Origin: Bacteroidota bacterium
GTDB taxonomy: Bacteria > Bacteroidota > Ignavibacteria > UBA10030 > UBA8401
Length of the DNA stretch: 37,413 nt
Direction: 5' to 3'
NCBI GenBank assembly: GCA_019455105.1
Contig: JACFMZ010000002.1
Coordinates: 51,516-88,928 of the forward strand
The notes below the pieces were generated by a model. The model had not been told where the DNA came from. It saw nothing but the letters and a program-made list of their open reading frames with translations, and ran no database searches. The position numbers and the translations under genes were made by a program. This document shows, piece by piece, positions 5,951-25,533 of this stretch. Within the stretch, counting starts at the first letter, position 1; each line of letters begins with the position of its first letter.

Positions 5951-6010
5951 CAGGAATGACTTTGCGGATTTAATTGTTGAGGAAGTAAGAATAAAAAGAT
6001 GAGGTGTATC

Positions 6011-7051
6011 ATGAAAAAAATATCAGCAATCGTTCTCATTTTTGTTGTAAGCGCACTGTTAACAGGATGCTATACACATCTCGCAACAGATGAGCTGCAA
6101 TCTTCCGATAATGATTATGCCTATTCCGATACTACTCAAGATGACAGCGGAAATGTAACAATTAATAATCATTATTATCTTGATGATGATTACCGCCAAG
6201 CTCGGTTTCGCTTGTCGTTCAATTATTATTATCCTTCGTATTCATCGTGGATAGGAAGTTACTATCATTCGTACTATGATGATTGGTATTGGGGCTTCGG
6301 CTGGAATCCGCGCCCATATCCGACGTGGGGAAATTATTACGGGTACTATCCGTATTATTCTTCGTGGGTGTATTACCCGTATCCGTATTATCCGTACCGT
6401 TATGATTCATGGCATCCGTATTATTCTCCGTATTGGACATGGAATTCAACGACAGGATATTATCCTTCGACCGCTCAAGGAAGAGTAAGAACGGAAGGAC
6501 AGACACGCGATATTAATAACGGTGGAAGAGGAGAACGTTCACAGCCGATTCCTTCGCCGAAACTTGGAACGCCTGATGCCGCAGTAGCGCCCGCGGCAGC
6601 TGCACCTTCAACACGCACCCGATCTGTGGATGTCGGAACAGCGACCGGTGAGGTGCGGTCAACTCGTTCAGGAAGTCGAAGAGATGAAACGCCGTGGTGG
6701 GAAAGACAGCAGCAGGAAGAACGATCGCGCAGCCGGCAGGTGACCGGCTCACAAGATAATAATGGAAATTCTAATTCGCCGAATATCAATAACACAACAA
6801 AGCGAAAACCTCGTCAGTCCAATACCAGTGTGAATCCCGGAGGAATGCAAAAACCAAATTACACTCCGCCCGCAGAAAATGATAATAAGAATAACGCAGG
6901 GCGTTCGAGAAGAAGTGAAAATAACCAGCCGTCGTATTCGGCGCCGCGTTCTTCATCGCCGCCGCCCACCTATTCACCTCCATCAGGATCGAGAGGCGGT
7001 AATTCACGCGACGGCGGATCGTCATCTTCAGGCGGAGGAAGAAGGAGATAA
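6011..7051 (+). CDS. Tyr/Trp-rich low-complexity lipoprotein
   Basis: 346 residues from ATG 6011, preferred over ATG 5999 because GAGGTG (6001-6006) is correctly placed and the protein then starts with a standard lipoprotein signal: MKK, hydrophobic core, LLTGC with lipidated Cys20. Residues roughly 60-155 are extremely rich in Tyr, Trp, Pro and Ser (for example YYPSYSSW, YYPYPYYPYRY). The rest is Arg/Ser/Asn/Gly/Pro-rich and probably disordered, ending GGGRRR. No enzymatic domain is recognisable. The GCYT start and the TRDxN / RSxPxP stretches recur in the next gene, so the two are probably diverged duplicates. Expected to be anchored in the outer membrane; a structural or surface-exposed role is inference only. 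Confidence 0.85.
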   Translation: MKKISAIVLIFVVSALLTGCYTHLATDELQSSDNDYAYSDTTQDDSGNVTINNHYYLDDDYRQARFRLSFNYYYPSYSSWIGSYYHSYYDDWYWGFGWNPRPYPTWGNYYGYYPYYSSWVYYPYPYYPYRYDSWHPYYSPYWTWNSTTGYYPSTAQGRVRTEGQTRDINNGGRGERSQPIPSPKLGTPDAAVAPAAAAPSTRTRSVDVGTATGEVRSTRSGSRRDETPWWERQQQEERSRSRQVTGSQDNNGNSNSPNINNTTKRKPRQSNTSVNPGGMQKPNYTPPAENDNKNNAGRSRRSENNQPSYSAPRSSSPPPTYSPPSGSRGGNSRDGGSSSSGGGRRR

Positions 7052-7052
7052 T

Positions 7053-7721
7053 ATGAAATATTTCAAATTTGGTTTTGGAATAATTGTAACGGCAATAATT
7101 TTTGCGGGATGTTATACGCAATTGTTAACGCCGCAGCAGTATGTAAAGTATCGAACGCAGACGAAATCAGAATCGCACCCACAGAGCGGCGACGCCGGAA
7201 CATCTTTAAATTACAGCAGAGATTGTCTTTCCTGCCATAGTAAATATGAATTGGAAGACCGCTATCAAGAGCTTTCGGCATCGGGACTTATTACTGTTCA
7301 TGGTTATACATTAGAGAGAAGTTTATGGGATTCGCCGTATGCGATTGAGTATTATACCCCTGATCCGTACGGCTGGAGACGCCCGGTTTTTTCTGAGCCG
7401 TGGTGGATTCCGCCGGCAGCGGCTATTGGAGCCAGTTCTTCTTCGCCGGCATCGAAAGATCGCACTCGTACGGGCGGAAATACCAGGGATGAGAATTCAA
7501 GAGAGAATCGAAGCGAACCGTTACCGGCGTATGTTCCTTCCGCTGCTCCGGCCGGAGGATCAACATCTGCGCCGTCAAATCCGACGCCGGCAGCATCTGC
7601 AGTCTCATCGGCGCCTGCCTCATCGCCGCCGCCGCCCGCTTCAACCGAAACACGAACGAGAAGCAGTTCATCGGATGATTCATCAACACGAACAACCGGT
7701 TCAAGCAGAGACCGACGTTAA
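7053..7721 (+). CDS. Lipoprotein with a CxxCH motif
   Basis: 222 residues starting at ATG 7053. AAGGAGATAAT overlaps the previous stop codon, giving an ideal ribosome binding site; a longer in-frame extension to 6879 lies inside the upstream gene and is rejected. The signal ends IIFAGC, with lipidated Cys20. The only other cysteines form C58-L-S-C61-H62, the signature of covalent c-type heme attachment, although two thiols and a His could also bind a metal. A Tyr/Trp/Pro stretch follows (YTPDPYGWRRPVFSEPWWIPP), then an Ala/Pro/Ser-rich and Arg/Ser-rich tail. The GCYT start and the TRDEN..RSEPLP segment mirror the upstream lipoprotein. Function is unknown; if heme is bound it would be a small envelope electron carrier. 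Confidence 0.85.
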   Translation: MKYFKFGFGIIVTAIIFAGCYTQLLTPQQYVKYRTQTKSESHPQSGDAGTSLNYSRDCLSCHSKYELEDRYQELSASGLITVHGYTLERSLWDSPYAIEYYTPDPYGWRRPVFSEPWWIPPAAAIGASSSSPASKDRTRTGGNTRDENSRENRSEPLPAYVPSAAPAGGSTSAPSNPTPAASAVSSAPASSPPPPASTETRTRSSSSDDSSTRTTGSSRDRR

Positions 7722-9219: not shown

Positions 9220-9254
9220 AACGCTATTTTAATATTTTGAAATAGCGTTTTTTT
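9220..9254 (+). terminator. Rho-independent terminator
   Basis: A perfect 10-base inverted repeat, AACGCTATTT (9220-9229) and AAATAGCGTT (9240-9249), with a 10-base loop, is followed directly by a T run. It lies 52 bases past the FadL-like stop and ends the 5189-9167 run. Confidence 0.88.
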
Positions 9255-11550: not shown

Positions 11551-11581
11551 TTGCATTGTAAGCGTTTCAGCCGTACATTCT
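11551..11581 (+). promoter_or_regulatory. Weak candidate -33/-7 promoter for the GHL10 gene
   Basis: TTGC (11551-11554), a 19-base spacer and TACATTCT (11574-11581), 41 bases before the chosen start. The spacing equals that of the candidates before recN and rfaE1, but the -7 box matches TAnnTTTG only partly. Confidence 0.2.
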
Positions 11582-11622
11582 TTACAGTTAGCTCACTTGT
11601 TTTACTCACTTCACAGGTTCCC

Positions 11623-14061
11623 ATGAACATTCGATTACTCTTATTTTGCTTAGGTATTACTGTTTTTTCATCAGTTAATGCTCAACAAACCGTTCAACCG
11701 AAACGAGAATTTCGTGCAGTGTGGGTCGCTTCTGTTACCAATATTGATTGGCCCTCCAATAAATCGCTCTCAACAACAGCACAAAAAAATGAAATTATTT
11801 CCATTTTAGATAAACATAAAGCGAATAATATTAATGCAATTTTACTGCAAGTGCGTCCTTCGTGCGATGCACTCTATCAAGGGGGCTTAGAGCCGCTTTC
11901 GGAATGGTTGGTCGGTTCACAGGGAGGAAATTTAAGTTCGTATTACGATCCGCTTCAATTCTGGATTGATGAAGCCCACAAACGGGGAATGGAACTGCAT
12001 GGCTGGTTTAATCCGTATCGCTCCGTTTTTTCTTCAACAAGCAGCGTGAGCTCATCTCATATTTCTAAAACTCATCCCGAATGGAATATCACGTACGGCT
12101 CAAGTCCGTACAAATTGTTAGATCCCGGAATACCGGATGTGCGAAATTATGTGGTGAGCGTTATTATGGATGTTGTGCGCCGGTATAATATTGACGGAGT
12201 TCACTTTGATGATTATTTCTATCCGTACGGCGGAATGACGAATCAAGATGATTCATCATGGGCAAAGTATCCCCGGGGATTTACCAACCGCGGAGATTGG
12301 AGACGGGACAATGTAAATCTTTTTGTGCGCATGGTGTATGACAGCATTAAAACCGCAAAGCCGTGGGTAAAATTTGGTATTTCTCCGTTCGGAATTTGGA
12401 AGAACGGAGTGCCGAGCGGAATTTCCGGACTGAATTCATATTCAGTAATTTACTGCGATGCCGTAAATTGGATTTCCAATAAAAAAGTAGATTACATCAA
12501 TCCGCAGCTTTATTGGAAAATCGGCGGCTCGCAGGATTATAATAAATTAATGCCGTGGTGGAGTCAGCAGGTTGCTTCTGTGAAACGACATCTTTATACC
12601 GGAAATGCAGCGTACCGTTTAACCGACGCAGCATACACAACGGCGAACGATCCATCGGAAATTCAAAATCAAATTGAATTAAACCGTCTCGGAGACAGAG
12701 CGCAGGGAGTTGTTTTCTTCAGTTCCAAATCCGTTACGGGAAATTTAAAAAATGTTCAGGATTCGCTTCGCGCCAATCAATTTCGCTATGCAGCGCTTCC
12801 GCCGGTGATGCCGTGGCTCGATTCTGTTCCTCCGATGCCGCCGGTAAATGTTCTTGCAACAGCCGGCAGCGGCTCCGTGCAGCTGCAGTGGAACAGCGGC
12901 GCAGCGGCGGCGGACGGCGAAACAGCAAGCCGGTTTGTTGTGTACAGCACGGTGAATTCGTTCAGCAGTGTTGATATCAACGATCCGAAAAATATCCGCT
13001 TCGTAACGCTGGACGGCGCCAAACAATTTATTGAATCCGTTCCCAATATTGCTTCTTCGCAGTATGAAGCAGTGGTCACTTCGCTCGATAAACTTTCCAA
13101 CGAAAGCGCACTGGCAGCAAAAGCGTATGTTGTGCCGGCAGGAAAACCGTTTGTGAAAGTAGAAAAATTCTTTGTTGATTTTAATGAAACGGCAGTCGGT
13201 CAACCGGTGCGCGATACGATTATGATTTATAATTTTGCGCAGGGAGTTCTTTCTCTTGAATCTTATACAAGCGGCGGAAAGGGATTTTCTCTTGAATCGT
13301 ATCCGCATTACGTTGCGGACAGCACAGCGCTTGTGGTAACTTTTTCACCGACAGCTTTCGGCGATGTAACCGATACTCTTGTTCTTCAAAACAATTCGCT
13401 TGTGGGACCGATTAAAATAGTTGTTAAAGGAAAATCTTCCGCGCCTGTTCTGCTGGCTGCCGGCACCAATATTGGTTTTGGAAGTATTGATATGGGGCAG
13501 ACTTTTATAAAACCAATAGCGCTTACCAATCAGTCTTCAAACGGAATTCAGGTTGATTCAATTGTCTCCGTCTCTACTTCAACCGGACATTTTAAAGTTG
13601 ATTCTGTTTCACTTCCCAAGACTATTTTCAAGGGAGATTCGCTTTGGTTAGCTGTTTCCTTTAAACCGGATTCAAATAAATTATACCTCGATACAATTAA
13701 CGTCTATAGTAATGCACAAAACTCGCCGTTGAAAATTGTCTTCTTCGGCATCGGAAAAGTTCCGCTTATTGTTGAGCAGCAGAATACTCAGCATCCGTTA
13801 GCGTATCAGCTTGAACAGAATTATCCGAATCCGTTCAATCCTTCCACCACTATTAAATTCTCGCTCGAGCGCTCCAACCATACGAGCCTGCGCGTATATG
13901 ATATGTTGGGAAGAGAAGTTGCGGTGGTAGTGGATGAAACGCTTACTTCCGGAACGTATGAATATAAATTTAACGGAGAAAATCTATCCAGCGGCGTGTA
14001 TTTGTTTAGAATTACTTCCGGCGAATATATACAAACGAAGAAAATGATTTTACAAAAATAA
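11623..14061 (+). CDS. Secreted GHL10 (DUF187)-family glycosidase-like protein with T9SS sorting domain
   Basis: 812 residues from ATG 11623, chosen because it gives a clean signal peptide (MNIRLLLFCLGITVFSSVNAQ); the in-frame ATG at 11551 adds 24 residues before it. The TIM-barrel GHL10 domain (about 28-390) is recognisable from REFRAVWVASVTNIDWPS, ILLQVRPSCDALY, MELHGWFNPYR, IDGVHFDDYFYP and VDYINPQLYW. It is followed by an FN3-like domain (~402-495), then one or two ASH-like immunoglobulin repeats (~505-710), and a T9SS type A domain (~728-812) with NYPNPFNPS, VYDMLGREV and the QTKKM end. GHL10 proteins are thought to cleave peptidoglycan-derived or other polysaccharides; the substrate is unproven. 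It should be exported, then secreted by T9SS and attached to the surface. It is likely a separate unit, with a weak AT-only hairpin behind it. Confidence 0.93.
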   Translation: MNIRLLLFCLGITVFSSVNAQQTVQPKREFRAVWVASVTNIDWPSNKSLSTTAQKNEIISILDKHKANNINAILLQVRPSCDALYQGGLEPLSEWLVGSQGGNLSSYYDPLQFWIDEAHKRGMELHGWFNPYRSVFSSTSSVSSSHISKTHPEWNITYGSSPYKLLDPGIPDVRNYVVSVIMDVVRRYNIDGVHFDDYFYPYGGMTNQDDSSWAKYPRGFTNRGDWRRDNVNLFVRMVYDSIKTAKPWVKFGISPFGIWKNGVPSGISGLNSYSVIYCDAVNWISNKKVDYINPQLYWKIGGSQDYNKLMPWWSQQVASVKRHLYTGNAAYRLTDAAYTTANDPSEIQNQIELNRLGDRAQGVVFFSSKSVTGNLKNVQDSLRANQFRYAALPPVMPWLDSVPPMPPVNVLATAGSGSVQLQWNSGAAAADGETASRFVVYSTVNSFSSVDINDPKNIRFVTLDGAKQFIESVPNIASSQYEAVVTSLDKLSNESALAAKAYVVPAGKPFVKVEKFFVDFNETAVGQPVRDTIMIYNFAQGVLSLESYTSGGKGFSLESYPHYVADSTALVVTFSPTAFGDVTDTLVLQNNSLVGPIKIVVKGKSSAPVLLAAGTNIGFGSIDMGQTFIKPIALTNQSSNGIQVDSIVSVSTSTGHFKVDSVSLPKTIFKGDSLWLAVSFKPDSNKLYLDTINVYSNAQNSPLKIVFFGIGKVPLIVEQQNTQHPLAYQLEQNYPNPFNPSTTIKFSLERSNHTSLRVYDMLGREVAVVVDETLTSGTYEYKFNGENLSSGVYLFRITSGEYIQTKKMILQK

Positions 14062-14083
14062 ATAAAAGATATTTTATTTTTTT
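14060..14083 (+). terminator. Weak AT-only terminator-like hairpin
   Basis: AAATAAAA (14060-14067) and TTTTATTT (14072-14079) form a perfect 8-base stem with a GATA loop and a following T run, overlapping the stop codon of the GHL10 gene. All pairs are A-T, so stability is low. It marks the left edge of the AT-rich cassette. Confidence 0.35.
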
Positions 14084-14247
14084 ATTGCCTTAATAGTTAA
14101 AATATTTGTACTATTGAAACACCGTTGAGCAAAGATTGTATAAGAGAAAATTACGCGGCTGTGGAATTTTTTATATTGCTTAATGTTCTGCACAGATAGA
14201 GTTTAGTTGACAATTTTTAAATATTCCTTTTGCAAGGAGATTTTCCC

Positions 14248-17200
14248 GTGAAAAGAATTGCTATTATTTCTCTTCTTTCTATTATCCCACTTTTTATCCT
14301 CAAATCCGGCACAACTGGAAAAATTTCCGGTATTGTTACAAATGCGCAAACAGGAGAACGTCTTGTAGGTGTTAATGTTGTTCTTGTTGGTACGGCATTG
14401 GGCACGGCGACAGACATTGATGGAAGTTTTGTTATTGTCAACATCTCACCCGGGCAATATTCTGTTCGCGCCTCCGCACTCGGTTATACTTCTGTTGTAG
14501 AGACGAATGTGCGTGTAATGATAGACCAAACGACTGAAATTAATTTCAAAATATCGGAAGAAGCTGTGCAGGGAGAAGAAGTCGTCGTTGTTGCTCAACG
14601 TCCGGTTGTTCAAAAAGACGTTTCGGCAACTCTTGCAAATATTGATTCTAAAGAAATTGAAAGTCTTCCCGTGACGTCAATTTCTGCTGTGGTCGGATTA
14701 CAAGCTGGTGTTACTGGGGGGTTGATAGTGCGCGGCGGTGGTGCTGACCAAACCGCATTTATGATTGATGGATTAACACTTCGAAATGAGCGGGATAATT
14801 CTCCATACAGCAACATCAGTCTTTCTTCTGTTCAAGATATACAAGTGCAAACTGGGGGATTTAATGCCGAATATGGAAATATCAGGTCTGGTATTGTGAA
14901 TGTTATTACTAAAGAAGGCAGTGTTGACAGGTACACTGTATCGGCAACCGTAAGAATAAGTCCCCCTGCTGCAAAAAATTTTGGACCATCTGTTTTCGAT
15001 AAAAATAGTTATTTTATTCGTTCTAGAATTGATCCGGCGGTTGCATGGACAGGTACAAACAACGTAGCATGGGATATTTACACACAACGTCAATACGCCG
15101 CATTTGATGGATGGAATGCCATTTCACAAGCGACATTAAAAGACAACGATCCGACAAATGATTTGACTCCGGAAGCAGCACAGCAATTGTTTTTGTTCCA
15201 ATTTCGCAGACAAGGAGAAATTGTAAAGCCCGATTATGATGTTGATGCGGGTTTTGGAGGACCGTTTCCTTTTGTTAGTTCTGAATTAGGAAATCTTCGC
15301 TTTTTTGCTTCCTACAGACAAACACAAAACATGTATGTTATTCCTCTCTCCAAAGATTCATATCAAGATTACAACGGACAACTTCGCATCACTTCTGATG
15401 TTGGCAGCGGAATGAAATTGATGTTGCAAGGAATTTTGGGTAGGCAGACCGGAACCAACAGCAATAATTCCGGCGCACCCGGTTTGTTTACTACGGCATC
15501 GGGAATTGCTAGCGTGCTTGATAGAGTAAGTTATATTGATAGGAGAATTTATTCGCCGGATTATTTTGCGCCAAGTACAATTACAATGAATAGTTTTGGC
15601 GGAAAATTTACCCATGTGCTTTCACCAACAACATTTTATGAAGCAAGCTTACAACGCCAATCCTATAAATATGATACTCACCCCGGAGCAGCACGCGATA
15701 TCACAAAAAAATATTTATTTGGAAACTCATATTATACCGATGAATTTCCATACGGATTTGCGGAGTCAAGTCCCGGATGGATTTATTTTTCAAACGGTGT
15801 CGGTTTTAGCAACTCACGCGATAGCAGCCAATTGGCAACCTATTCTTTCAAGTTTGATTTCAACAGTCAGGTTGATAGATATAACGAAATAAAATCAGGC
15901 ATAGAATTTATTTATAATGAGAGCAATGTAAATTACGGCTTAGTGGATTACTTTACCGGAAATTTTACACAATCAAAATGGAATACAACTCCAACGCGTT
16001 TTTCACTCTATGCACAAGATAAATTTGAATACGAAGGTTTAATTGCAAACTTTGGATTGCGTTTTGATTATTCCAACCCCGGGGGAGAATGGTACGATGT
16101 TCAGCCGTTTGATCCAAAATTGGGATTAGTGCAAAATGGTTCAACAAGACTTGATGAAGTTGTGGTAAAAACACCAATTAAAAAAAATCTTAATGTCAGT
16201 CCGAGACTGGGAATTGCTTTTCCTGTAACCGAATATTCAAAATTATTTTTTAACTATGGGCATTTTCGCTCTATGCCACAACCCCAAAACTTATTTTTAG
16301 TTCGCGTAGATCCTCGATTCAGTACGGTTTCGTACATGGCTAATCCGAATAATCCGCTTCCCAAAACAATTGCGTATGAACTTGGATATGAGCATAGTAT
16401 TTTTGAAGAATATTTAATACGTGTTGCCGGTTATTACAAAAATGTTTCTGATCAATCAACAACGATTAGTTATACCGACAAAAAAGGAAATATTTATAGT
16501 ATGTCGGTTCCGAATTCGTATGAAGATATTCGGGGATTTGAAATTACTCTTTCAAGAGACAGGGGAAATTGGATTACCGGTTTTGCAAATTATACATATA
16601 TGGTAAGTTCGTCCGGTAGATTTGGTTATAGCGAAGAAAATGAAGATTTGAATGCCCAAAAAATATATGAGCGTGATAATAAAGTGGCGGATTTGTATCA
16701 AATACGTCCAATACCGCGACCGTACGCTCGTGCAAGTGTTGATTTTTTTACACCTGCTGATTATGGAATAGAATATGGAGGCGTTGGAGTATTTAACGAC
16801 TGGCGATTGAACTTTACCGGTAGCTGGCAAGCAGGATCGTACTTTACTTGGTTTGGTGGTGGTGCGGCGCCACCGGATGTGCGGTACAATGCTCAGTATC
16901 GTGATAATTACAGTCTTGATATGCGCCTGAGCAAAACCTTCAAATTCGGACCGGCGAATATTCAATTGTTTATGGATATTAGCAACTTATTTAATATCAA
17001 AAACTTTTCAGGTTATGGATTTTATGATGCCGCCGATTTTAATAACTATATGAAATCACTCCATTTGAAGTCAGAAATGTATGACAGTCGTTCCGGTTAT
17101 ATTAATATTCCGGGAAGCGATCAGCCGGGTGATACGCGGAAAGATGGTGTAGCATTTACACCAATTGAACCGGTAGGAGTCGTGACGGATCTTTCTCCAT

Positions 17201-17409
17201 CACAAATTCAGCCAACGGCAATTTATTGGGAAAAAAATACGGGGAAATATTTGCAATATAACGGAAGCACATGGAATGAGGTTAGTTCTTCAAAGATGTC
17301 TCAAATTCTTGACGACAAATCGTATATCGATATGCCAAATTTAAGTTCATTTGTTTTCTTAAACCCACGTGATATCTTTTGGGGATTAAAAGTTAGTTTT
17401 GAATTCTAA
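14248..17409 (+). CDS. TonB-dependent outer-membrane receptor
   Basis: 1053 residues from GTG 14248; AAGGAG at 14234-14239 sits eight bases upstream, and a TTG at 14230 would leave that site unused. After a short signal region, a carboxypeptidase-regulatory-like domain (about 22-105: GKISGIVTNAQTGERLVGV, GTATDIDGSF, SALGYTSVVE) precedes the plug (~124-225: LIVRGGGADQTAFMIDG, GGFNAEYGNIRSGIVNVITK). A large 22-strand-type barrel ends in GLKVSFEF. It imports or handles a large substrate using TonB energy. Unlike SusC it is not followed by a SusD gene; instead an FN3 protein starts 15 bases later, with lipoproteins and a PorV-like barrel behind. A proximal TonB box was not identified. No supported promoter was found in the 160 bases upstream. 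Confidence 0.95.
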   Translation: MKRIAIISLLSIIPLFILKSGTTGKISGIVTNAQTGERLVGVNVVLVGTALGTATDIDGSFVIVNISPGQYSVRASALGYTSVVETNVRVMIDQTTEINFKISEEAVQGEEVVVVAQRPVVQKDVSATLANIDSKEIESLPVTSISAVVGLQAGVTGGLIVRGGGADQTAFMIDGLTLRNERDNSPYSNISLSSVQDIQVQTGGFNAEYGNIRSGIVNVITKEGSVDRYTVSATVRISPPAAKNFGPSVFDKNSYFIRSRIDPAVAWTGTNNVAWDIYTQRQYAAFDGWNAISQATLKDNDPTNDLTPEAAQQLFLFQFRRQGEIVKPDYDVDAGFGGPFPFVSSELGNLRFFASYRQTQNMYVIPLSKDSYQDYNGQLRITSDVGSGMKLMLQGILGRQTGTNSNNSGAPGLFTTASGIASVLDRVSYIDRRIYSPDYFAPSTITMNSFGGKFTHVLSPTTFYEASLQRQSYKYDTHPGAARDITKKYLFGNSYYTDEFPYGFAESSPGWIYFSNGVGFSNSRDSSQLATYSFKFDFNSQVDRYNEIKSGIEFIYNESNVNYGLVDYFTGNFTQSKWNTTPTRFSLYAQDKFEYEGLIANFGLRFDYSNPGGEWYDVQPFDPKLGLVQNGSTRLDEVVVKTPIKKNLNVSPRLGIAFPVTEYSKLFFNYGHFRSMPQPQNLFLVRVDPRFSTVSYMANPNNPLPKTIAYELGYEHSIFEEYLIRVAGYYKNVSDQSTTISYTDKKGNIYSMSVPNSYEDIRGFEITLSRDRGNWITGFANYTYMVSSSGRFGYSEENEDLNAQKIYERDNKVADLYQIRPIPRPYARASVDFFTPADYGIEYGGVGVFNDWRLNFTGSWQAGSYFTWFGGGAAPPDVRYNAQYRDNYSLDMRLSKTFKFGPANIQLFMDISNLFNIKNFSGYGFYDAADFNNYMKSLHLKSEMYDSRSGYINIPGSDQPGDTRKDGVAFTPIEPVGVVTDLSPSQIQPTAIYWEKNTGKYLQYNGSTWNEVSSSKMSQILDDKSYIDMPNLSSFVFLNPRDIFWGLKVSFEF

Positions 17410-17424
17410 TACAGCGAGAAAAAC

Positions 17425-19464
17425 ATGAGATATGTACAGAAACAAATTTTATTTTCAATGCTTCTTGCGGGAATGTTATCGGCGCAGGTAGCCGAAGAAA
17501 AAGCATGGATGAGTGTAGGAGCATTACATAATTGGTATTCAAACTATGGCAGCGAGCGCGAAGAAGGCTGGGTTGCCGAACAGCAATATGGTTTACAATG
17601 GCCCGCTTTGTACCAACATCAAGATGCGCAAGCAGCAAAAGGAATGTGGATTGGGACAACAAATTATAGCGACGACAAGGGCTCATTTCAAAATAAAGTT
17701 GTCCATGTCGGTCCGCGCGCTACTGGATCGGGAGAATTTTTCCCCGTTACATTTAGCATGACAAGTAAATATGAACCCCCTGTGGTGACTGTTGATGGCG
17801 CGGCAACATACAGCAAATTAATTGAAAATAACGCCGTTGACAATAGTCAAAAGTATGATAGAATTATTGATAATGTGGTTAATACATCAATCGGATTAAC
17901 GATGCACCGAAAGATTATTGGGTTTAGTCAACAATATCATGACAATTACATCATTTTTGATTATACATTTAAAAATACCGGAATAATTAATGAAAAAGGA
18001 ACACTGCGAGCACCGAAAACTTTAACAGGAGTGTATATCTTCTTTCAACAACGATGGTCTGCAAATGCTGATGTGCGATATGTGATTGGAAACGAAACGG
18101 GATGGGGAAGACAAACGATGAATGATGTGCGTGGTGATACAACGATTGCGGGAACATTCTTTCCCGGAAATGCGGATAATGATATTCGAGCGAGTTACTC
18201 ATGGCACGGACGATACACAGGATTTTCTCAATATGATAATATCGGTGGTCCAATCTTTACTCCGTATTACGATAAAACCGATACAGCAGGAAGAATCGGC
18301 GCTCCTCAATTTGTTGGATGGGGAACCCTTCACGTTGATACGTCACCATCTGATACAACGGATAATATGGGGCAGCCGGCAACAACTTCGTATGAAGATT
18401 CAGATGATGATCTTAATAGAAATAATGACCAGTATAACGCAGCAAAAATGATTTCGGAATACAACTGGATGTTAAAAGGACACGTAATGCCGCGCCATGC
18501 TGATAAAGTAGGTACTGGAACAGATGCTTCACTGGGACGCTCTGGTGGATATTCTTCAGCGCAAGGATATGGTCCTTTTACCCTCGCACCAGGAGATAGT
18601 GTGCGTCTTGTAATTGCAGAAGCGGTTGCCGGACTAAGTAGAGAAGCGGCAGTGTCGGTTGGTAAACAATTTAAGAACGGGTTAATTACTGCAGCGCAAA
18701 AAAACGATTCTGTTTATACAGGACGCAATGCCTTGTTTACTACGTTTCGCCGAGCAATAGCGAATTACTCAACTGGTTGGAATATTCCGCAGCCACCACC
18801 GCCACCGAAGAAGTTCAGCGTTAGCTCAGGTGCGGGAAAAATAATATTGAACTGGGAACCTAATACGGATAATGCGACAGATCCAACAGTTGCAAAGTGG
18901 GAAGTGTGGAGAGCTCAAGGACGTTATGACAGTACGTATTATAAAGTTTGGGAAGGCACCGGAAGCAGTTACAGTGATACATCAGCAGCATTGAATACGG
19001 CATATTATTATTATCTTATTGCTGTTGGTGACCCCGCGGGAAATACAGGAGCCGGAATGACTCCGACGGGTGCCTTGTCAAGCAATCGGTATTATACCCA
19101 AACTTACCTTCCGGCGTTTCGACGAACTCCCCCTTTTAAAACTCTTGCTGAAGCAAAAGGAAAAATAAGAATCGTTCCCAATCCCTATAATATTTCAGCG
19201 CGAGGCGGACTATTGTATCCCGGAGAATCGGATAAAATTTCATTCGTCAATATTCCCGGTCAATGTACGGTACGCATCTATTCGGAATTAGGTGAGTTAA
19301 TCAAAACTATTGAGCACGGCACAACACCTGCCGATGAAACAGGATCACTGGATTATGATATGACAACATCGTCAAATCAAATTATTGTGAGTGGTGTGTA
19401 TATTGCAGTGATTACAACACCGGCAGGAGAAAAAGAAATATTGAAGTTTGTCGTAATACGTTAA
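17425..19464 (+). CDS. Large secreted FN3-domain protein with a divergent C-terminal sorting-like domain
   Basis: 679 residues with a signal peptide (MRYVQKQILFSMLLAGMLSAQ). Residues ~25-450 form a beta-rich domain that I do not recognise (EKAWMSVGALHNWYSNYGSE, GEFFPVTFSM, YHDNYIIFDYTFKNTG). An FN3 domain follows at ~458-550 (KKFSVSSGAGKIILNWEP). The end (~582-679) has PNPYNIS, then RIYSELGELIKTIEHG and SGVYIAVITT, the same plan as the T9SS type A domain but without the NPFNP and QTKKM signatures. It begins 15 bases after the receptor stop and is followed 16 bases later by a lipoprotein, so it is very likely co-expressed. By position it could be the receptor's surface partner, in the place SusD would hold; that is inference. 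Confidence 0.8.
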   Translation: MRYVQKQILFSMLLAGMLSAQVAEEKAWMSVGALHNWYSNYGSEREEGWVAEQQYGLQWPALYQHQDAQAAKGMWIGTTNYSDDKGSFQNKVVHVGPRATGSGEFFPVTFSMTSKYEPPVVTVDGAATYSKLIENNAVDNSQKYDRIIDNVVNTSIGLTMHRKIIGFSQQYHDNYIIFDYTFKNTGIINEKGTLRAPKTLTGVYIFFQQRWSANADVRYVIGNETGWGRQTMNDVRGDTTIAGTFFPGNADNDIRASYSWHGRYTGFSQYDNIGGPIFTPYYDKTDTAGRIGAPQFVGWGTLHVDTSPSDTTDNMGQPATTSYEDSDDDLNRNNDQYNAAKMISEYNWMLKGHVMPRHADKVGTGTDASLGRSGGYSSAQGYGPFTLAPGDSVRLVIAEAVAGLSREAAVSVGKQFKNGLITAAQKNDSVYTGRNALFTTFRRAIANYSTGWNIPQPPPPPKKFSVSSGAGKIILNWEPNTDNATDPTVAKWEVWRAQGRYDSTYYKVWEGTGSSYSDTSAALNTAYYYYLIAVGDPAGNTGAGMTPTGALSSNRYYTQTYLPAFRRTPPFKTLAEAKGKIRIVPNPYNISARGGLLYPGESDKISFVNIPGQCTVRIYSELGELIKTIEHGTTPADETGSLDYDMTTSSNQIIVSGVYIAVITTPAGEKEILKFVVIR

Positions 19465-19480
19465 TTTTGGGAATACAACA

Positions 19481-20101
19481 ATGAGAAATTTAATAAATAT
19501 TTTTTTTAGCGCGGTTGTAATGATGGTAGTTTTTGAATCATGCAATCAATCAACCGGATCTGATTCATACGACTCATTATGGAGTCCTTCAGGCGATTCA
19601 AAAAATACTTCATGGATTGCTCCGTCGGGTGTTGAATTTTCTCAAGTTGACCGCGGATTCCAGTTTACTCCGACATTTGATACGACAAGCGGAGGAAAAG
19701 CATATCTGTTTACTCCAAGTATTTATCAAGTAACAAACATAACGACAGCAGAATATGCAACAGTAAGTTTTAAAGCGAGAATTGTAACGCCTCCTGATTC
19801 TATTGATATTGTTTCCGGCGGAAAAACTACTCATCAATTTGGTGTTATCGAAGGAACCGTTGAGGCGAGCGGCGACTCTGTGAATTTCAGTACAAAATCT
19901 TTTACGCCTAACGTTGAAAATACGATTACATTCAGCACGAACCCCGACTCAATCAGTAAAATATTACGGTTTAGAATTATTGCTAAATGGGATTCTGTTA
20001 TTACCGGAACTCATGTAAACCCTCTTCCAACATCAAAGAAAATAACCGTAGAAGTTAGCGATATTGTTATGAAAGTGTACAAAATTTCAGTATTGAAATA
20101 A
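19481..20101 (+). CDS. Putative small lipoprotein
   Basis: 206 residues, with an N-terminal hydrophobic segment ending VFESC (Cys21). The lipobox is degenerate (Glu at -2), which is tolerated in Bacteroidota, so lipidation is likely but not certain. The mature part is Ser/Thr-rich and beta-strand-rich (KNTSWIAPSGVEFSQVDRG, YATVSFKARIVTPPDS, ENTITFSTNPDSISK), with no recognised domain and a plain C-terminus. It lies inside the receptor operon, 16 bases after the FN3 protein and 20 bases before the PorV-like gene. It is probably an envelope-anchored accessory of the same system; role unknown. Confidence 0.72.
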   Translation: MRNLINIFFSAVVMMVVFESCNQSTGSDSYDSLWSPSGDSKNTSWIAPSGVEFSQVDRGFQFTPTFDTTSGGKAYLFTPSIYQVTNITTAEYATVSFKARIVTPPDSIDIVSGGKTTHQFGVIEGTVEASGDSVNFSTKSFTPNVENTITFSTNPDSISKILRFRIIAKWDSVITGTHVNPLPTSKKITVEVSDIVMKVYKISVLK

Positions 20102-20121
20102 TACATCGTTATAGGAAACGT

Positions 20122-21123
20122 ATGAAAAAAACATTATTGATTATTATTCTTTTTAGCATTTCGCTTTCTGCGGTTGCGCAAAATAGAAAGTTGGCGCAAA
20201 CCGGAATGAAATTTTTGAATGTTGCTACCGATCCAAGGGCGGTTGCAATGGGTGAAGCATTTTGTTCCGTAGAAGGAATGTCATCATCTCTTTTTTATAA
20301 TCCAGCCGGTCTTGCACGGATGGCTGAGTCATTTCAAGCAGAGATTGGTTATACGCAATGGATAGCTGATATTAACCATACATTTGCGAGTGCTGCAATT
20401 GGAACACCTAATAATGACTATGGAGTTTTTGGTGTTACCTTGCAATCTGTTGATTACGGAGCAATTATTCGTACGATTCGCGTAGATAATAGTGCGGATG
20501 GTTATATGGATGTCGGTACGTTTTCTCCATTAGCAATTTCTGTCGGGTTAGGTTATGCAAATGCACTCAGCGATCGATTTTCTGTAGGCGGTAGAGTTGC
20601 CTATAATCTTCAAAATCTTGGTGACGGTATTTCGGAGACGAATAGCCAGCAAAATCCCATTACGTCAACCAATAAGGCAGAAGTTTTATCGTTTGATTTT
20701 GGAATGTTTTATAAAACCGGATTGAAAAGTTTAAATTTTGCTGTTAGCGTTAGAAATTTTTCAAAAGAAATAAAATTTCAACGCGAAACATTCTCGCTTC
20801 CATTAACAATTAGAATTGGCATTTCTGCTAATGTTATGGATTTTGTTTCTTCATCGTCCGATACAGATCCGTTTCTTGTAAGTATCGATGCAATTAATTC
20901 ACGCGACTATCCCGAAACGATTAATATTGGCGGTGAATATGTTTTTATGAAAACATTGGCGTTGCGAGCGGGATATATGTTCGGATATGATGAAAAAGCT
21001 TTTACAGCAGGTTTGGGTATAAATCAAAAAATAAAAGGAATCGGCATTGGAATTGATTATGCCTATGCTCCATTTGGTGTATTCAGTAACGTTAATCGCT
21101 TTGCAATACAATTTTACTTCTAG
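20122..21123 (+). CDS. PorV/PorQ-family outer-membrane protein
   Basis: 333 residues with a signal peptide (MKKTLLIIILFSISLSAVAQ) and an AGGAAA ribosome binding site. The family signature follows: KFLNVATDPRAVAMGEAFCSVEGMSSSLFYNPAGLA. The rest consists of regular amphipathic strands ending NRFAIQFYF. In T9SS, PorV is an outer-membrane barrel that receives cargo C-terminal domains and hands them to the attachment machinery; PorV/PorQ relatives are numerous in Ignavibacteria and often sit beside their cargo. Here it lies in the same operon as the receptor and upstream of a T9SS-signal protein, which suggests a dedicated secretion or anchoring role. Its length matches the PorV/PorQ family. Confidence 0.88.
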   Translation: MKKTLLIIILFSISLSAVAQNRKLAQTGMKFLNVATDPRAVAMGEAFCSVEGMSSSLFYNPAGLARMAESFQAEIGYTQWIADINHTFASAAIGTPNNDYGVFGVTLQSVDYGAIIRTIRVDNSADGYMDVGTFSPLAISVGLGYANALSDRFSVGGRVAYNLQNLGDGISETNSQQNPITSTNKAEVLSFDFGMFYKTGLKSLNFAVSVRNFSKEIKFQRETFSLPLTIRIGISANVMDFVSSSSDTDPFLVSIDAINSRDYPETINIGGEYVFMKTLALRAGYMFGYDEKAFTAGLGINQKIKGIGIGIDYAYAPFGVFSNVNRFAIQFYF

Positions 21124-21140
21124 TAATTTTTAGGATGAGT

Positions 21141-22379
21141 ATGAAACATTATTTTTTACTTGTAACAATCTGCGTTTTGTTATTTTGGGGATGTGAAAAG
21201 GAAGCTGCCCCGAGTATCTACAACCCCAACCATATCGATGCACCTGCCCCAGTGATTGCAAGTATTACGCCGGTCGATAGCGCACAAGGCGGAGTTGATA
21301 CGTTAGTAATATCTGGTTCAAATTTTTCTGCTGAGACAGGAAAAAATATTGTTTATGTTAATGCTACTGCCGCCACAATTTATCAAAGTAATAAAACACA
21401 AATTTTAGTAAAGGCTCCGCGTACAGAAGTCGGGGACAGCGCACTTATTCGCATTGCTGTGCAAGGCGCGGAAAAATTTAGTAATGGTATTTATTATAAA
21501 ATTCAACCGGCAATTATTGATTATGCGGAAGTAACGAATCCAAAATTGTTGGGCGCTAATGAATTTGTAAAAGCCGTTACAACGGATAGTTCGGGAAATG
21601 TCTATGTAAGCGTTACTCTTGTTAGTGCAACGGGCAGTTCCGATTTAGGAATTAGAAAAATTTCTCCGAATGGAGTGATGACAACTTTTGCACCACCGGC
21701 TTCCGGTGTTTCAGAAGTATTGCCCTTAAAGATGGGACCGGATGGTTCCCTTTATACTATACGAAGCTCCCGTCGTATTTTCCGCTATAATTCAGCGGGA
21801 ACAAACTCCGGTACTGCTTGGATTACATTATCTCCCGCCAGTGTTTCCATTACGGATTTTGATTTTTCAACAAATAAAACTTTATGGGCGGCTGGAAGCA
21901 ATAACCCTATTACTAATGCTACGATTTATGCTATTTTACCAAACGCAACAATAAAAACTTTTCCATTTGCTGCCTCAGTAAGATCGGTGCGAGTATATAA
22001 TAATTATCTTTATATGTCAGCACAGAAAGATTCTGTCTGGGGAATTTGGCGTGCACAATTGTTAGCAAACGATGATCTTGGAACTCCCGAACTCTATTTC
22101 GATTTCTCTGCTGCATTTGGTTTATCTGTTATACCGCAAGGAATTACGTTCAGTGCTAACGGCGATCTTTATATTGCCACCAATGCTCCAGCGGGAATTG
22201 TTATTGTTACGCCGTCAAATATTTCTATGGTACGTTACACTGATTATTCAAGTCTTTTTGGGTCGTTTGTTCGATATCTGGCATGGGGAAATGGAACAGA
22301 ATTATATGCAGTAACAAATGAAGGAAAATTTTTGAAAATGTACGCGCGTGCATATAGTGCACCGTACTATGGGCAATAA
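21141..22379 (+). CDS. IPT/TIG-domain lipoprotein with a propeller-like C-terminal part
   Basis: 412 residues from ATG 21141. The AGGA at 21132-21135 is better spaced for it than for the in-frame ATG at 21135, which would add two residues. The signal ends LLFWGC (Cys18). An IPT/TIG immunoglobulin-like fold spans about 37-120 (APVIASITPVDSAQGGVDTLVISGSNFS). Residues ~130-405 have repeats of the NHL/SMP-30 propeller kind (TTDSSGNVYVSVT, MGPDGSLYTIRS, FSANGDLYIATNA). Proteins of this plan are commonly surface lipoproteins beside TonB receptors and can bind glycans or other ligands. It is the last closely spaced gene of the receptor operon, 17 bases after the PorV-like gene. Confidence 0.85.
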   Translation: MKHYFLLVTICVLLFWGCEKEAAPSIYNPNHIDAPAPVIASITPVDSAQGGVDTLVISGSNFSAETGKNIVYVNATAATIYQSNKTQILVKAPRTEVGDSALIRIAVQGAEKFSNGIYYKIQPAIIDYAEVTNPKLLGANEFVKAVTTDSSGNVYVSVTLVSATGSSDLGIRKISPNGVMTTFAPPASGVSEVLPLKMGPDGSLYTIRSSRRIFRYNSAGTNSGTAWITLSPASVSITDFDFSTNKTLWAAGSNNPITNATIYAILPNATIKTFPFAASVRSVRVYNNYLYMSAQKDSVWGIWRAQLLANDDLGTPELYFDFSAAFGLSVIPQGITFSANGDLYIATNAPAGIVIVTPSNISMVRYTDYSSLFGSFVRYLAWGNGTELYAVTNEGKFLKMYARAYSAPYYGQ

Positions 22380-22470
22380 TTGAGATTGAAATAAATCCGT
22401 TTTTTAAGGTACTCCACATAAACTCAATAACAACATTATTTTTTTTGTAGAATTCGTCATAAAGAAAGGA

Positions 22471-22478
22471 GGGGGGGG
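22471..22478 (+). repeat. Homopolymeric G8 tract in an intergenic region
   Basis: Eight consecutive G residues follow AAAGAAAGGA and precede A6-G-T6-C-A8. The tract is 79 bases upstream of the T9SS propeller gene. Such a run is prone to slippage; it is also a known weak spot for sequencing. Any regulatory role is unproven. Confidence 0.6.
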
Positions 22479-22556
22479 TAAAAAAGTTTTTTCAAAAAAA
22501 ATTTTGTAGTAGAAATATTAACTCACTAAACACATCTATTTAGAAAGGATAACACA

Positions 22557-23912
22557 ATGAAAAGAATAACTACATCTTGGGTTATTACATTGTTTCTGTT
22601 AAGCACCGCCTCTGTTTTCGGACAGTATGTTGATGACGGAGTTTTCCCGGATACTAATAGCTATAAAATAGGAGGTCGCGCGCTCAATGGTGCATTAGGT
22701 GTTGACCCTGAAGGAAAGGTTTGGTTTCGACCATATTATAATGATACTGATTCTATAATGACTGCTAACGGCACCAACAAGGCAATTACTCCTATCTACG
22801 TATTTAATGCGAACGGAACCCAGGCAAGTTTTTCACCGATTAAAATTCTGACAGGTCCTGATCAAGATGGTGCAGCAGTAACGGATACGCTTACCGGTAC
22901 TAATACCGGTGGAAGAACAAATCCATCTAACGGAAATTTTGTTATTAATGTCGGAACTAAAGCCGGATTTGCCGCATTTTGGGAAGTTAATTACAAAACC
23001 GGAGAAGGCGTAATAAGAATTGCCACTCCTTATCCAGCTAATAATGCCGGTGTTGGCATTGATGGATCTGGTAATTATTATACCGCTAATGTTCTTGGAG
23101 GTCTTGTTGGTCAAGTTATTTCCCCAACAGGTTCACTTGGTGATAAATATGCAGAATCAGTACCAGAAATTGGCAGACATTTAGCTGTTTCACGTGATGG
23201 AAAAGATGTTTACGTTCCGCGTTTTACCGCTCATAAAATTTATGTCTATCATTCTGAGGATGGTGATGGATTTGGACCGTACGCACTGGTGGATAGTTTT
23301 GGCCACGGCTCCTCTTCTGAGTCAATAGAGATTCATCCGACAACAGGTCATGTGTGGTTTTCTAATGATTCAGTGCGGTCTGTACTTGATACAGTAAGTG
23401 CTACACCAAGAGCATGGGGAAGTAATGTATATTATGAATATGATCCTAAATCAAAAACAATTGTGGACAGTATTCAAGTAGATAGTTGGAGGGGAATAGC
23501 AACATTGTATCCGCGGGGAATTGCTTTCAGCCCGACCGGTGATACCATGTATGTTTCCCATTTTGATGGTAGAGAGAATGCGAATACAATTCGCCGATTT
23601 ATTAAAGGAACAACAAGTGTGAAACGCAATATGGATCTTGTTGCAAATAGTTTTTCTTTAGCACAAAACTATCCTAATCCGTTTAATCCTTCTACCAAGA
23701 TTGATTTCAGTTTAACAAATGCCGCAACAATAAGCTTAAAGGTTTATGATATGCTGGGAAGAGAAATTGCAACCTTAGCACAAGGTACATATTCTGCCGG
23801 CGTATATAACGTAAATTTTGATGCAAAAAATATTTCTGCGGGAATGTATTTTTATACTTTAAAAACTTCTGATGGATTTACGCAGACAAAGAAAATGCTG
23901 TTGATTAAGTAG
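22557..23912 (+). CDS. Secreted beta-propeller protein with T9SS type A sorting domain
   Basis: 451 residues with a signal peptide (MKRITTSWVITLFLLSTASVFGQ) and a good ribosome binding site (AAAGGA). Residues ~25-355 contain propeller-type repeats of the YncE/SMP-30 kind: ALGVDPEGKVWFRPYY, GVGIDGSGNYYTANV, LAVSRDGKDVYVPRF, IEIHPTTGHVWFSND, IAFSPTGDTMYVSHFDG. The C-terminal ~87 residues are a full T9SS type A domain (NYPNPFNPS, VYDMLGREI, SAGMYFYTL, QTKKM). It should be secreted and surface-attached. It shares the propeller theme with the IPT lipoprotein 177 bases upstream and may bind the same ligand. The gap with its G8 tract suggests its own promoter; a strong terminator follows. Confidence 0.9.
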   Translation: MKRITTSWVITLFLLSTASVFGQYVDDGVFPDTNSYKIGGRALNGALGVDPEGKVWFRPYYNDTDSIMTANGTNKAITPIYVFNANGTQASFSPIKILTGPDQDGAAVTDTLTGTNTGGRTNPSNGNFVINVGTKAGFAAFWEVNYKTGEGVIRIATPYPANNAGVGIDGSGNYYTANVLGGLVGQVISPTGSLGDKYAESVPEIGRHLAVSRDGKDVYVPRFTAHKIYVYHSEDGDGFGPYALVDSFGHGSSSESIEIHPTTGHVWFSNDSVRSVLDTVSATPRAWGSNVYYEYDPKSKTIVDSIQVDSWRGIATLYPRGIAFSPTGDTMYVSHFDGRENANTIRRFIKGTTSVKRNMDLVANSFSLAQNYPNPFNPSTKIDFSLTNAATISLKVYDMLGREIATLAQGTYSAGVYNVNFDAKNISAGMYFYTLKTSDGFTQTKKMLLIK

Positions 23913-23934
23913 TAACTATTAATTGAAATTAACG

Positions 23935-23977
23935 AAAAGCCGTTCTTTTGGTAGAAAAAGAGCGGCTTTTTGTTTTT
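23935..23977 (+). terminator. Rho-independent terminator
   Basis: AAAAGCCGTTC (23935-23945) pairs with GAGCGGCTTTT (23960-23970), 11 base pairs with one G-T wobble, with a 14-base loop and then TGTTTTT. It closes the AT-rich cassette 23 bases past the propeller gene. Confidence 0.82.
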
Positions 23978-24058: not shown

Positions 24059-25054
24059 ATGATTCAACTGTCGAAAAATAGAGTAACCTCTTTCTTTAAT
24101 GCTCTGCAGGGAAAAAGAATTGCCGTGCTGGGCGATGTTATGATTGATAAATATATCTGGGGTGCGGTTTCCCGCATTTCACCGGAAGCGCCGGTACCGG
24201 TGGTAGATGTTGATCACCAGAATGCGCGTCTCGGCGGCGCGGCGAATGTTGCCAACAATATTCAATCGTTAGGCTGCGAACCGATTCTCATCGGCGTGGT
24301 GGGAAATGATGCGGAAGGGGCTGAACTAAAATCAATTTTAGAAGCGCAGCATTGTTCTTCCGAAGGAATTATTCTTGATGATGAACGAATAACTACCGTG
24401 AAGACTCGTGTTATTGCGCATCAACAGCATGTGGTGCGCATTGATCGCGAACAGCGGAATGATATAAATGAACAGGTGCAGAAAAAAATTCTTTCGTTTC
24501 TGGAATCGAGAATCAATGAGCTTGATGCGATTATTATTGAAGATTACAACAAAGGACTTATAGTAAAAAATTTAATTCATCAGGTTACGGCGCTGGCAAA
24601 GAACTATCAAAAAATTATTACGGTCGATCCGAAGTATCATCATTTTTTTGAATATAAAGGAGTTACGGTATTTAAACCGAACAGAAAAGAGACGGAAGAA
24701 GGAGTCGGGAAAAAATTTACAAGCGAAGAAGAGCTTCTTGCCGCCGGAAAAATTTTACTGCAAAAACTTGAAGCTGAAAATATTCTCTTAACGCGAAGCG
24801 AAAAAGGCATGACCTTGTTTGAAAAAAACGGTGCGGTAACGCACTTCCCGACAAAGGCGCGGAAAGTTGCCGATGTTTCCGGCGCGGGAGATACGGTCAT
24901 CGGCACGCTGACGGCGATGCTTGCCTGCGGAGCCTCAATTCAAGAAGCGGCGATTATTGCCAACCATGCGGGAGGCATTGTTGTCGGCGAAGTCGGCATT
25001 GTTCCGATTGATGCCGAATTGTTGAAAAACGATGTGCTGGAGAATATTGCGTAA
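24059..25054 (+). CDS. rfaE1: D-glycero-beta-D-manno-heptose-7-phosphate kinase
   Basis: 331-residue PfkB-family sugar kinase corresponding to the N-terminal half of E. coli HldE. It phosphorylates heptose 7-phosphate at position 1 on the way to ADP-heptose for the LPS inner core; cytoplasmic. Landmarks are GDVMIDKYIWG, SPEAPVPVVDV, the Gly-rich LGGAANVANNI, VFKPNRKE, and the anion-hole motif DVSGAGDT with catalytic base D278. The end lacks the adenylyltransferase half, which is the next gene: the TAA of this gene overlaps its ATG by one base (TAATG), implying coupled translation. First gene of the run after the terminator at 23935. Confidence 0.95.
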   Translation: MIQLSKNRVTSFFNALQGKRIAVLGDVMIDKYIWGAVSRISPEAPVPVVDVDHQNARLGGAANVANNIQSLGCEPILIGVVGNDAEGAELKSILEAQHCSSEGIILDDERITTVKTRVIAHQQHVVRIDREQRNDINEQVQKKILSFLESRINELDAIIIEDYNKGLIVKNLIHQVTALAKNYQKIITVDPKYHHFFEYKGVTVFKPNRKETEEGVGKKFTSEEELLAAGKILLQKLEAENILLTRSEKGMTLFEKNGAVTHFPTKARKVADVSGAGDTVIGTLTAMLACGASIQEAAIIANHAGGIVVGEVGIVPIDAELLKNDVLENIA

Positions 25055-25533
25055 TGGGAAAAGTATTTTCCATAGCAGAATTAACGGCGCAGCGTCAGCG
25101 CTGGAAAGAAGAAAAGAAAACGGTGGTCTTCACCAACGGCGTGTTTGATCTTCTGCACCGCGGACATGTGAAATATCTTGCGGAAGCAAAAAAACTCGGC
25201 GATGTGCTGATTGTCGGGATGAATACCGATGATTCGGTGCATCGCATTAAAGGTCCGCTTCGGCCGATTGTTCCGGGAGATGACCGTGCATTTGTTCTTT
25301 CTCAGTTAGCTTCGGTAGATGCCGTGTGTCTTTTTACGGAAGAGACTCCTTTCAATCTTATTGCTGCGGTGGTGCCGGATATTTTGGTTAAAGGAGGAGA
25401 CTATACGCTTGATGCCATTGTGGGAAAAGATATTGTGGAACACGCCGGCGGCAAAGTGATGACGATTCCGTTTGTCGAGAACAAATCCACAACCAATATT
25501 GTAGAAATTATTCGTCAGCGGTTCTGCTCGTAG
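25054..25533 (+). CDS. rfaE2: D-glycero-beta-D-manno-heptose 1-phosphate adenylyltransferase
   Basis: 159-residue nucleotidyltransferase matching the C-terminal half of HldE. It attaches AMP to heptose 1-phosphate to form ADP-heptose for LPS. The cytidylyltransferase-like fold is shown by VFTNGVFDLLHRGH with the HxGH motif (H35, H38), VGMNTDDSVHRIKG, and the C-terminal motif ENKSTTNI, equivalent to the ISSTxI nucleotide-binding motif. It is translationally coupled to rfaE1 and separated by nine bases from the tamB-like gene. The split arrangement is common outside Enterobacteria. Confidence 0.95.
   Translation: MGKVFSIAELTAQRQRWKEEKKTVVFTNGVFDLLHRGHVKYLAEAKKLGDVLIVGMNTDDSVHRIKGPLRPIVPGDDRAFVLSQLASVDAVCLFTEETPFNLIAAVVPDILVKGGDYTLDAIVGKDIVEHAGGKVMTIPFVENKSTTNIVEIIRQRFCS

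Follow-up and report, generated by a model that had tools for sequence, protein, structure and literature searches.

We analyzed a stretch of 37,413 nucleotides, here called the window, from the genome of a Bacteroidota bacterium (GTDB lineage Ignavibacteria; UBA10030; UBA8401; assembly GCA_019455105.1, contig JACFMZ010000002.1, positions 51,516 to 88,928). It contains a block of six genes encoding a TonB-dependent receptor, a surface protein with an FN3 domain, a putative lipoprotein, a PorV/PorQ-family outer-membrane barrel, a second lipoprotein and a beta-propeller protein that ends in a sorting domain of the type IX secretion system (T9SS). These genes, their order and their single direction had been proposed in an earlier note on this DNA and were borne out by annotation (Table 1). 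With a probability of roughly 0.7, we conclude that the block is an operon at a fixed ancestral site in its subclade, where its alleles have repeatedly been replaced in place across lineages. The odd composition of the window's copy apparently reflects such a replaced allele and not an inserted island.

For comparison, sampled genomes, loci and genera were given G-, L- and g-labels, G000 being the window's genome; all assemblies are drafts. Relatives of protein 2 were present in 55 of 120 related genomes and, in a sample of 395 genomes across the phylum, in 78 (about a fifth). We compared 80 loci from named genomes of Ignavibacteria, Melioribacteraceae, Rhodothermales, Calditrichota and others. 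One carrier that has been cultured is Stygiobacter electus (locus L186). The order 1-2-4-5-6 was kept in most loci having enough sequence, and the five-gene core recurred in dozens of Ignavibacteria, Rhodothermia and Calditrichota. Judged by this recurrence, the block is a conserved operon rather than a one-off cassette. Gene 3 is confined to the window's family (f1): most f1 loci whose site holds the operon have it, and none of the loci of other families do.

The chromosomal site is shared as well. A GHL10 gene, the operon and then hldA-hldC-asmA-RNB were found in this arrangement in G021, G002, G006 and G008. In G010 the GHL10 catalytic gene is missing from the site, although the operon and right flank are in place, and G004, G013 and G019 carry the operon with its right flank on contigs that end on the left. 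Occupied sites were found in relatives from genera g1, g3, g5, g7 and g9, and across relatives the gene order at the site was kept, with only gene 3 and GHL10 varying. In G005 and G007, GHL10 lies directly beside hldA with no block between, and G003 has no operon there. Because the operon occupies the same site across the family, we consider the site old and the operon not newly inserted in the window's genome.

Phylogenies of the block and its flanks conflict. Trees of flank proteins united G021, G019 and G010 (support 100) and placed G000 outside genera g3, g5 and g9. Those of block proteins 1, 2 and 4 grouped G000 with G021 and G020 (100) and set G010 and G019 apart; in them, G002 joined genomes of g4 and g2, and G008 those of g7. 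For proteins 5 and 6, G000 and G021 clustered with genomes of another family. In approximately unbiased (AU) tests, monophyly of g3, which has a support of 100 in the flanks, was rejected for the TonB receptor, the FN3 protein, the PorV-family barrel and the tail (p 1e-5 to 1e-115); a G000 plus G021 grouping was rejected for the flanks (p 7e-82), yet appeared in every block tree. Identities follow the same division. Between G021 and G019, members of the same genus, protein identity is 90% for the flank (PfkB/CTP/RNB) but 56% for the block front and 37% for the tail, whereas G000 and G021 share 65% in the flank, 71% in the block front and 73% in the tail. Their tail-to-flank distance ratio of 0.73 was the lowest of 45 pairs, most of which lay between 1.7 and 2.9. 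At the DNA level, G021 and G010 are 75-84% identical in the left flank and 79% in the right, and inside the block 66-72% or unalignable.

In G021, the ends of the exchanged piece could be located. Residues 1-365 of its gene 6 product are 76% identical to G000 versus 33% to its own genus, while residues 366-452 are 77-85% identical to G019/G002, 65% to G000 and 62% to G010; as these identities read, the gene is a chimera joined at the border of the T9SS sorting domain. In the receptor, the affinity lies with the genus for residues 1-60 (72-80% versus 54%) and with G000 beyond residue ~120. From these switches, the piece exchanged in G021 begins at about the receptor N-terminal domain and ends near the border of the sorting domain in gene 6. 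Further exchanges were detected between G008 and G006/G013, between G004 and G012 (front) and between G010 and G012 (tail). Exchange would proceed by homologous recombination through the flanks and conserved gene ends, and its likely benefit would be that other substrates can be used, or that phages or bacteriocins relying on the receptor are evaded. In the window's case, the simplest candidate for a donor is a relative of the G021 type with AT-rich DNA, from which the allele was probably imported.

Synonymous composition sets the window's block apart. The G+C fraction at fourfold-degenerate sites (GC4) is 0.27-0.35 in all six block genes versus 0.46-0.64 in all 16 other genes of the window, and it steps from 0.49 to 0.34 at 14.2 kb and from 0.27 to 0.64 at 24.0 kb. 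A composition or codon shift at about 14.1 and 23.9 kb, as claimed previously, is seen as sharp GC4 steps between genes, with only a modest dip in overall GC (0.36-0.45 inside, mostly 0.42-0.47 outside, and 0.36-0.40 also at 1-2 kb). The twelve hand counts of G+C per 60 bases behind that claim were all exact but drawn from the extremes: they average 20.9 inside and 32.4 outside, against 23.7 and 25.9 over all such windows. The accompanying argument that protein type alone does not explain the drop holds, because secreted or envelope genes outside the block have ordinary GC4 (FadL-like, 0.48; sorting-domain GHL10 and M10, 0.49). Against a genome background taken from ~300 kb of the same genome, sampled as loci (median GC4 0.48, 5% quantile 0.31), none of 142 six-gene runs was as low as 0.32, the nearest lying on contig C142 (0.323). 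The block-minus-flank GC4 offset is -0.29 in the window and -0.03 to -0.14 in ten relatives.

Codon tables point in a similar direction: those of AT-rich g3 relatives describe five of the six block genes (all but gene 3) a little better than the typical table of the host does, and flank genes fit the host's table clearly better than those of the AT-rich relatives. Translational selection or high expression was rejected as the cause of the codon shift, since ribosomal protein genes and EF-Tu lack the block pattern: their GC4 is mostly 0.45-0.55, and C-ending two-fold codons, favoured in EF-Tu (0.47), make up 0.14-0.31 in the block. Elsewhere in the genome, at G000:C86:14856-17475, two adjacent genes that by eye resemble restriction-modification genes have GC4 values of 0.31 and 0.23, the genes on either side being at 0.58 and 0.64.

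Several observations weigh against allele replacement or against reading composition as its mark. Breakpoints were resolved in a single relative, G021, and every genome compared is a draft assembly. Regional differences within the window's genome are strong: a 60-kb stretch of apparently native housekeeping genes on contig C142 has a GC4 median of 0.37 versus ~0.5 elsewhere, and of all codon tables compared, that of C142 suits the block best. C142 is probably native, because it carries the genome's only pnp (63-82% identical to full-length relatives), so an AT-rich synonymous composition alone is no proof of foreign DNA; as such a proof, composition is weakened. Block GC4 is also somewhat below flank GC4 in every relative, from which it follows that part of the dip is intrinsic.

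That slight dip in all relatives, together with the native AT-rich C142 and a gene order and site common to most relatives, would suit an ordinary, vertically inherited operon whose codon usage drifted or came under selection, the window's lineage having seen no exchange. We consider this improbable: the window's offset is twice that of any relative, with sharp edges, its codon pattern is unlike that of highly expressed genes, and vertical descent is rejected by the trees and distance ratios. Hidden paralogy, in which ancestral tandem operon copies at the site were differentially lost, could produce conflicting trees without transfer, and many genomes do hold several paralogues, with G009 and G015 carrying tandem copies of the module, although elsewhere in their genomes. 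It is nonetheless an unlikely explanation. Loss alone cannot make the tail genes of G000 and G021 (73%) closer than their slower flank genes (65%), the chimeric gene 6 of G021 keeps a local sorting domain, and two copies at the site were seen in none of the genomes examined.

The earlier note had favoured a transferable module, which amounts to a recent insertion of a mobile genomic island between flanks unrelated to it. The composition break fits this, as do G005 and G007, in which the block is missing from the site. Most sister genomes, however, hold it there, with a block/flank offset of only 0.03-0.14 versus 0.29 in the window. The window has no tRNA gene and no integrase or transposase among its annotated genes, and no direct repeats of note were found at the block borders, which share one 9-mer only. 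Transferability thus survives in that alleles move between lineages, but a newly inserted island is very improbable and was rejected because the site is occupied in relatives. A draft genome of 197 contigs with an estimated contamination of 2.8% could in principle contain an assembly chimera, with reads of an AT-rich companion organism joined into the contig. This is extremely improbable: it needs two joins at exactly homologous positions with genes intact, and joins require near-identical stretches, whereas flank DNA of candidate sources is only ~67-72% identical. Replacement of alleles in place at an old site remains the reading we prefer.

Table 1 The six-gene block, its border hairpin and adjacent genes (window positions)
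Feature	Position	Strand	Details
Gene 1, TonB-dependent receptor	14248..17409	+	1053 amino acids; CarbopepD_reg at N terminus, then plug
Gene 2, surface protein	17425..19464	+	Super-beta-sandwich with linker helices ~22-455, FN3 ~460-540, divergent T9SS-like sorting domain 578-679
Gene 3, putative lipoprotein	19481..20101	+	206 amino acids, Cys21; lipobox read from sequence
Gene 4, PorV/PorQ-family outer-membrane barrel	20122..21123	+	NF033709 186 bits (cut-off 90)
Gene 5, lipoprotein, IPT/TIG domain and beta-propeller-like region	21135..22379	+	Pfam TIG 8.9e-10
Gene 6, beta-propeller protein	22557..23912	+	Type A T9SS sorting domain 372-451; TIGR04183 43.8 bits (cut-off 23)
Terminator-type hairpin	23931..23974	+	19-pair stem, then T-rich tract; fold z = -5.3; 0/200 shuffles as stable
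Left neighbour, GHL10 glycosyl-hydrolase-like protein	11551..14061	+	T9SS sorting domain; Pfam GHL10 5.2e-71
Right neighbours, hldA and hldC	24059..25533	+	hldA 24059-25054, TIGR02198 391 bits; hldC 25054-25533, TIGR02199 202 bits

Genes within the block are separated by 11-20 bases, except for 177 before gene 6. Gene 1 starts with GTG preceded by AAGGAGA, and its product matched the Pfam families CarbopepD_reg_2 (3.8e-18) and Plug (4.5e-8). Protein 2 had no match in Pfam. Its AlphaFold2 model (predicted local distance difference test score, pLDDT, 90) resembles, over residues 1-455, the super-beta-sandwich and linker helices of GH94/GH116/GH15-type enzymes (VIA-align Z ~18, 230-284 residues). 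The catalytic (alpha/alpha)6 barrel is missing from the model, and only two long helices precede the FN3 domain, which gave a profile match to PDB 3mpc (E 1.8e-4). The C-terminal domain scored 19.7 bits against TIGR04183, for which the cut-off is 23. Gene 3 had no Pfam or NCBIfam match. Gene 4 stays under the T9SS equivalog cut-offs, with 80.4 bits versus 250 for PorV (NF033710) and 85 versus 220 for PorQ. In the gene 5 product, Cys20 is invariant across an alignment of 40 relatives, and profile matches in PDB comprised propellers, TIG domains and also 3hrp. The AlphaFold2 model of protein 6 (pLDDT 84.5) matched propellers; by its sorting domain, this protein is a predicted T9SS cargo, and the window's genome encodes the T9SS translocon protein SprA (TIGR04189, 1086 bits).

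Pairing of a surface protein with a PorV-family barrel extends beyond the operon. The C-terminal domain of protein 2 has matches at eight other places in the genome, and at each of them the next gene downstream, on the same strand, is of the PorV family. Across the 80 loci, such a protein precedes 56 of 85 PorV-like genes and follows none, many of these cases being the operon itself. The genome holds ~14 PorV-family members over the subfamily cut-off, and one near-canonical PorV is encoded elsewhere. A surface protein with its dedicated barrel looks like a general two-gene unit, and the arrangement suggests that the C-terminal domain of protein 2 docks on the partner barrel. Proteins ending in this C-terminal domain, which is of VPNPY type, are each followed directly by a PorV-family gene on G000 contigs C62, C56, C177, C104, C3, C12 and C32 (loci L055, L056, L050, L057, L058, L052 and L054).

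In 33 of the 80 loci, a GHL10 catalytic gene lies next to the operon, on its upstream or its downstream side depending on the lineage, and genomes of the family contain only 1-11 such genes. The GHL10 neighbour in the window, which lies outside the composition break, is a probable functional partner of the operon. DigH of Escherichia coli, which hydrolyses peptidoglycan strands devoid of peptides, is a member of the GHL10 family. A term search of the DigH paper (PMC12288456) gave no stated link to GHL10. In a few loci of another family, further genes follow for an NlpC/P60 peptidase, a member of the enolase superfamily that is nearest to models of N-acetyl-D-Glu racemase and L-Ala-D/L-Glu epimerase, and a NagX-like protein. 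In L157 (15938-22018) and L071 (814-5388), GHL10, an NlpC/P60 peptidase and an epimerase-like enzyme come after the operon; L157 additionally encodes a NagX-like protein. These neighbours suggest peptidoglycan fragments as the material handled, although such a gene neighbourhood occurs in a few loci only.

A tentative model, to which we give slightly less than even odds, is that the operon serves glycan capture and TonB-driven uptake. Proteins 2 and 6 would reach the surface by the T9SS, and the PorV-family barrel would receive protein 2 through its C-terminal domain. There, proteins 2 and 6 may act with the barrel and the TIG/propeller lipoprotein in binding pieces of glycan set free by enzymes, the neighbouring GHL10 protein for example, and the TonB receptor would import what was captured. 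Peptidoglycan-derived fragments are the most likely candidate substrate, a weakly held assignment that we think rather doubtful. Somewhat speculative, too, is the wider picture of a phylum-wide TonB-PorV glycan-capture machine, its barrel holding a glycosidase-like protein devoid of a catalytic barrel, that is exchanged between lineages as a cassette with joints at conserved protein address tags, namely the receptor N-terminal domain and the T9SS sorting domain with which gene 6 ends; this is possible, but we would not expect it to hold in full.

At the borders of the block, hairpins had been proposed on both sides. The one on the right is well supported (Table 1), whereas on the left, between the GHL10 gene and gene 1 (14062-14247), no hairpin exceeding chance expectation was found (z = 0.3-0.4). 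On the right, hldA encodes a heptose-phosphate kinase and hldC an adenylyltransferase, and both recur as the flank in relatives. Further left in the window, a near-perfect AT-rich 13-pair hairpin with a T run (9220-9249), a likely terminator, follows the FadL-like gene, and upstream of that gene lie two overlapping frames (5999-7051 and 6879-7721) that have no match in Pfam and whose second codon positions are unusually GC-rich (0.56-0.58).

A search of the open-access literature, a single library, gave no description of the operon and nothing relevant on PorV in connection with Ignavibacteria; on that basis, the five-gene operon is apparently undescribed so far. It offers a testable layout of sorting-domain protein, PorV-family barrel and TonB receptor, and it cautions that a dip in GC may signal exchanged alleles at a long-standing site instead of a new island. 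Parts of the operon resemble known systems. With SusC/SusD loci it shares a TonB receptor with a carboxypeptidase-like N-terminal domain, surface lipoproteins and the match of protein 5 to 3hrp. It differs in having a PorV-family barrel and sorting-domain proteins, in a receptor far below the SusC/RagA cut-off (TIGR04056, 54.5 bits versus 368) and in lacking SusD, for which Pfam/NCBIfam annotation gave no match in the block, its neighbours or the other annotated window genes; the earlier judgement that this is no SusC/SusD locus was correct. As with T9SS PorV and its cargo, a PorV-family barrel is encoded beside sorting-domain proteins, yet gene 4 falls below the equivalog cut-off. Protein 2 likewise has the N-terminal super-beta-sandwich and linker helices of GH94/GH116/GH65/GH15 glycosidases and phosphorylases, but it lacks the catalytic (alpha/alpha)6 barrel and continues with FN3 and a divergent sorting domain.

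For the exchange itself, the swapping of outer-membrane receptors in place across genera of the little-studied Ignavibacteria invites comparison with marine surface loci and with RagAB of Porphyromonas. Replacement flexible genomic islands of aquatic prokaryotes occupy a fixed place, encode exposed surface structures and differ in version among related genomes, and they are reported to be exchanged by homologous recombination, with phages as a possible selective force (PMC4033161). The block likewise lies at the same place and diverges between conserved flanks, but where those islands carry different genes per strain, it keeps its gene order and its alleles differ at genus or family depth; it works like a replacement flexible genomic island without being a typical member. 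In Porphyromonas gingivalis, RagA and RagB form a receptor and surface lipoprotein pair whose distinct alleles are scattered against the strain phylogeny (PMC5266723). TonB-linked receptor alleles conflict with phylogeny in both cases, although RagAB is a SusC/SusD-type pair within one species and the block is a five- or six-gene operon without SusD that is exchanged across genera. Its joint at the sorting domain sets it apart from both the islands and RagAB.

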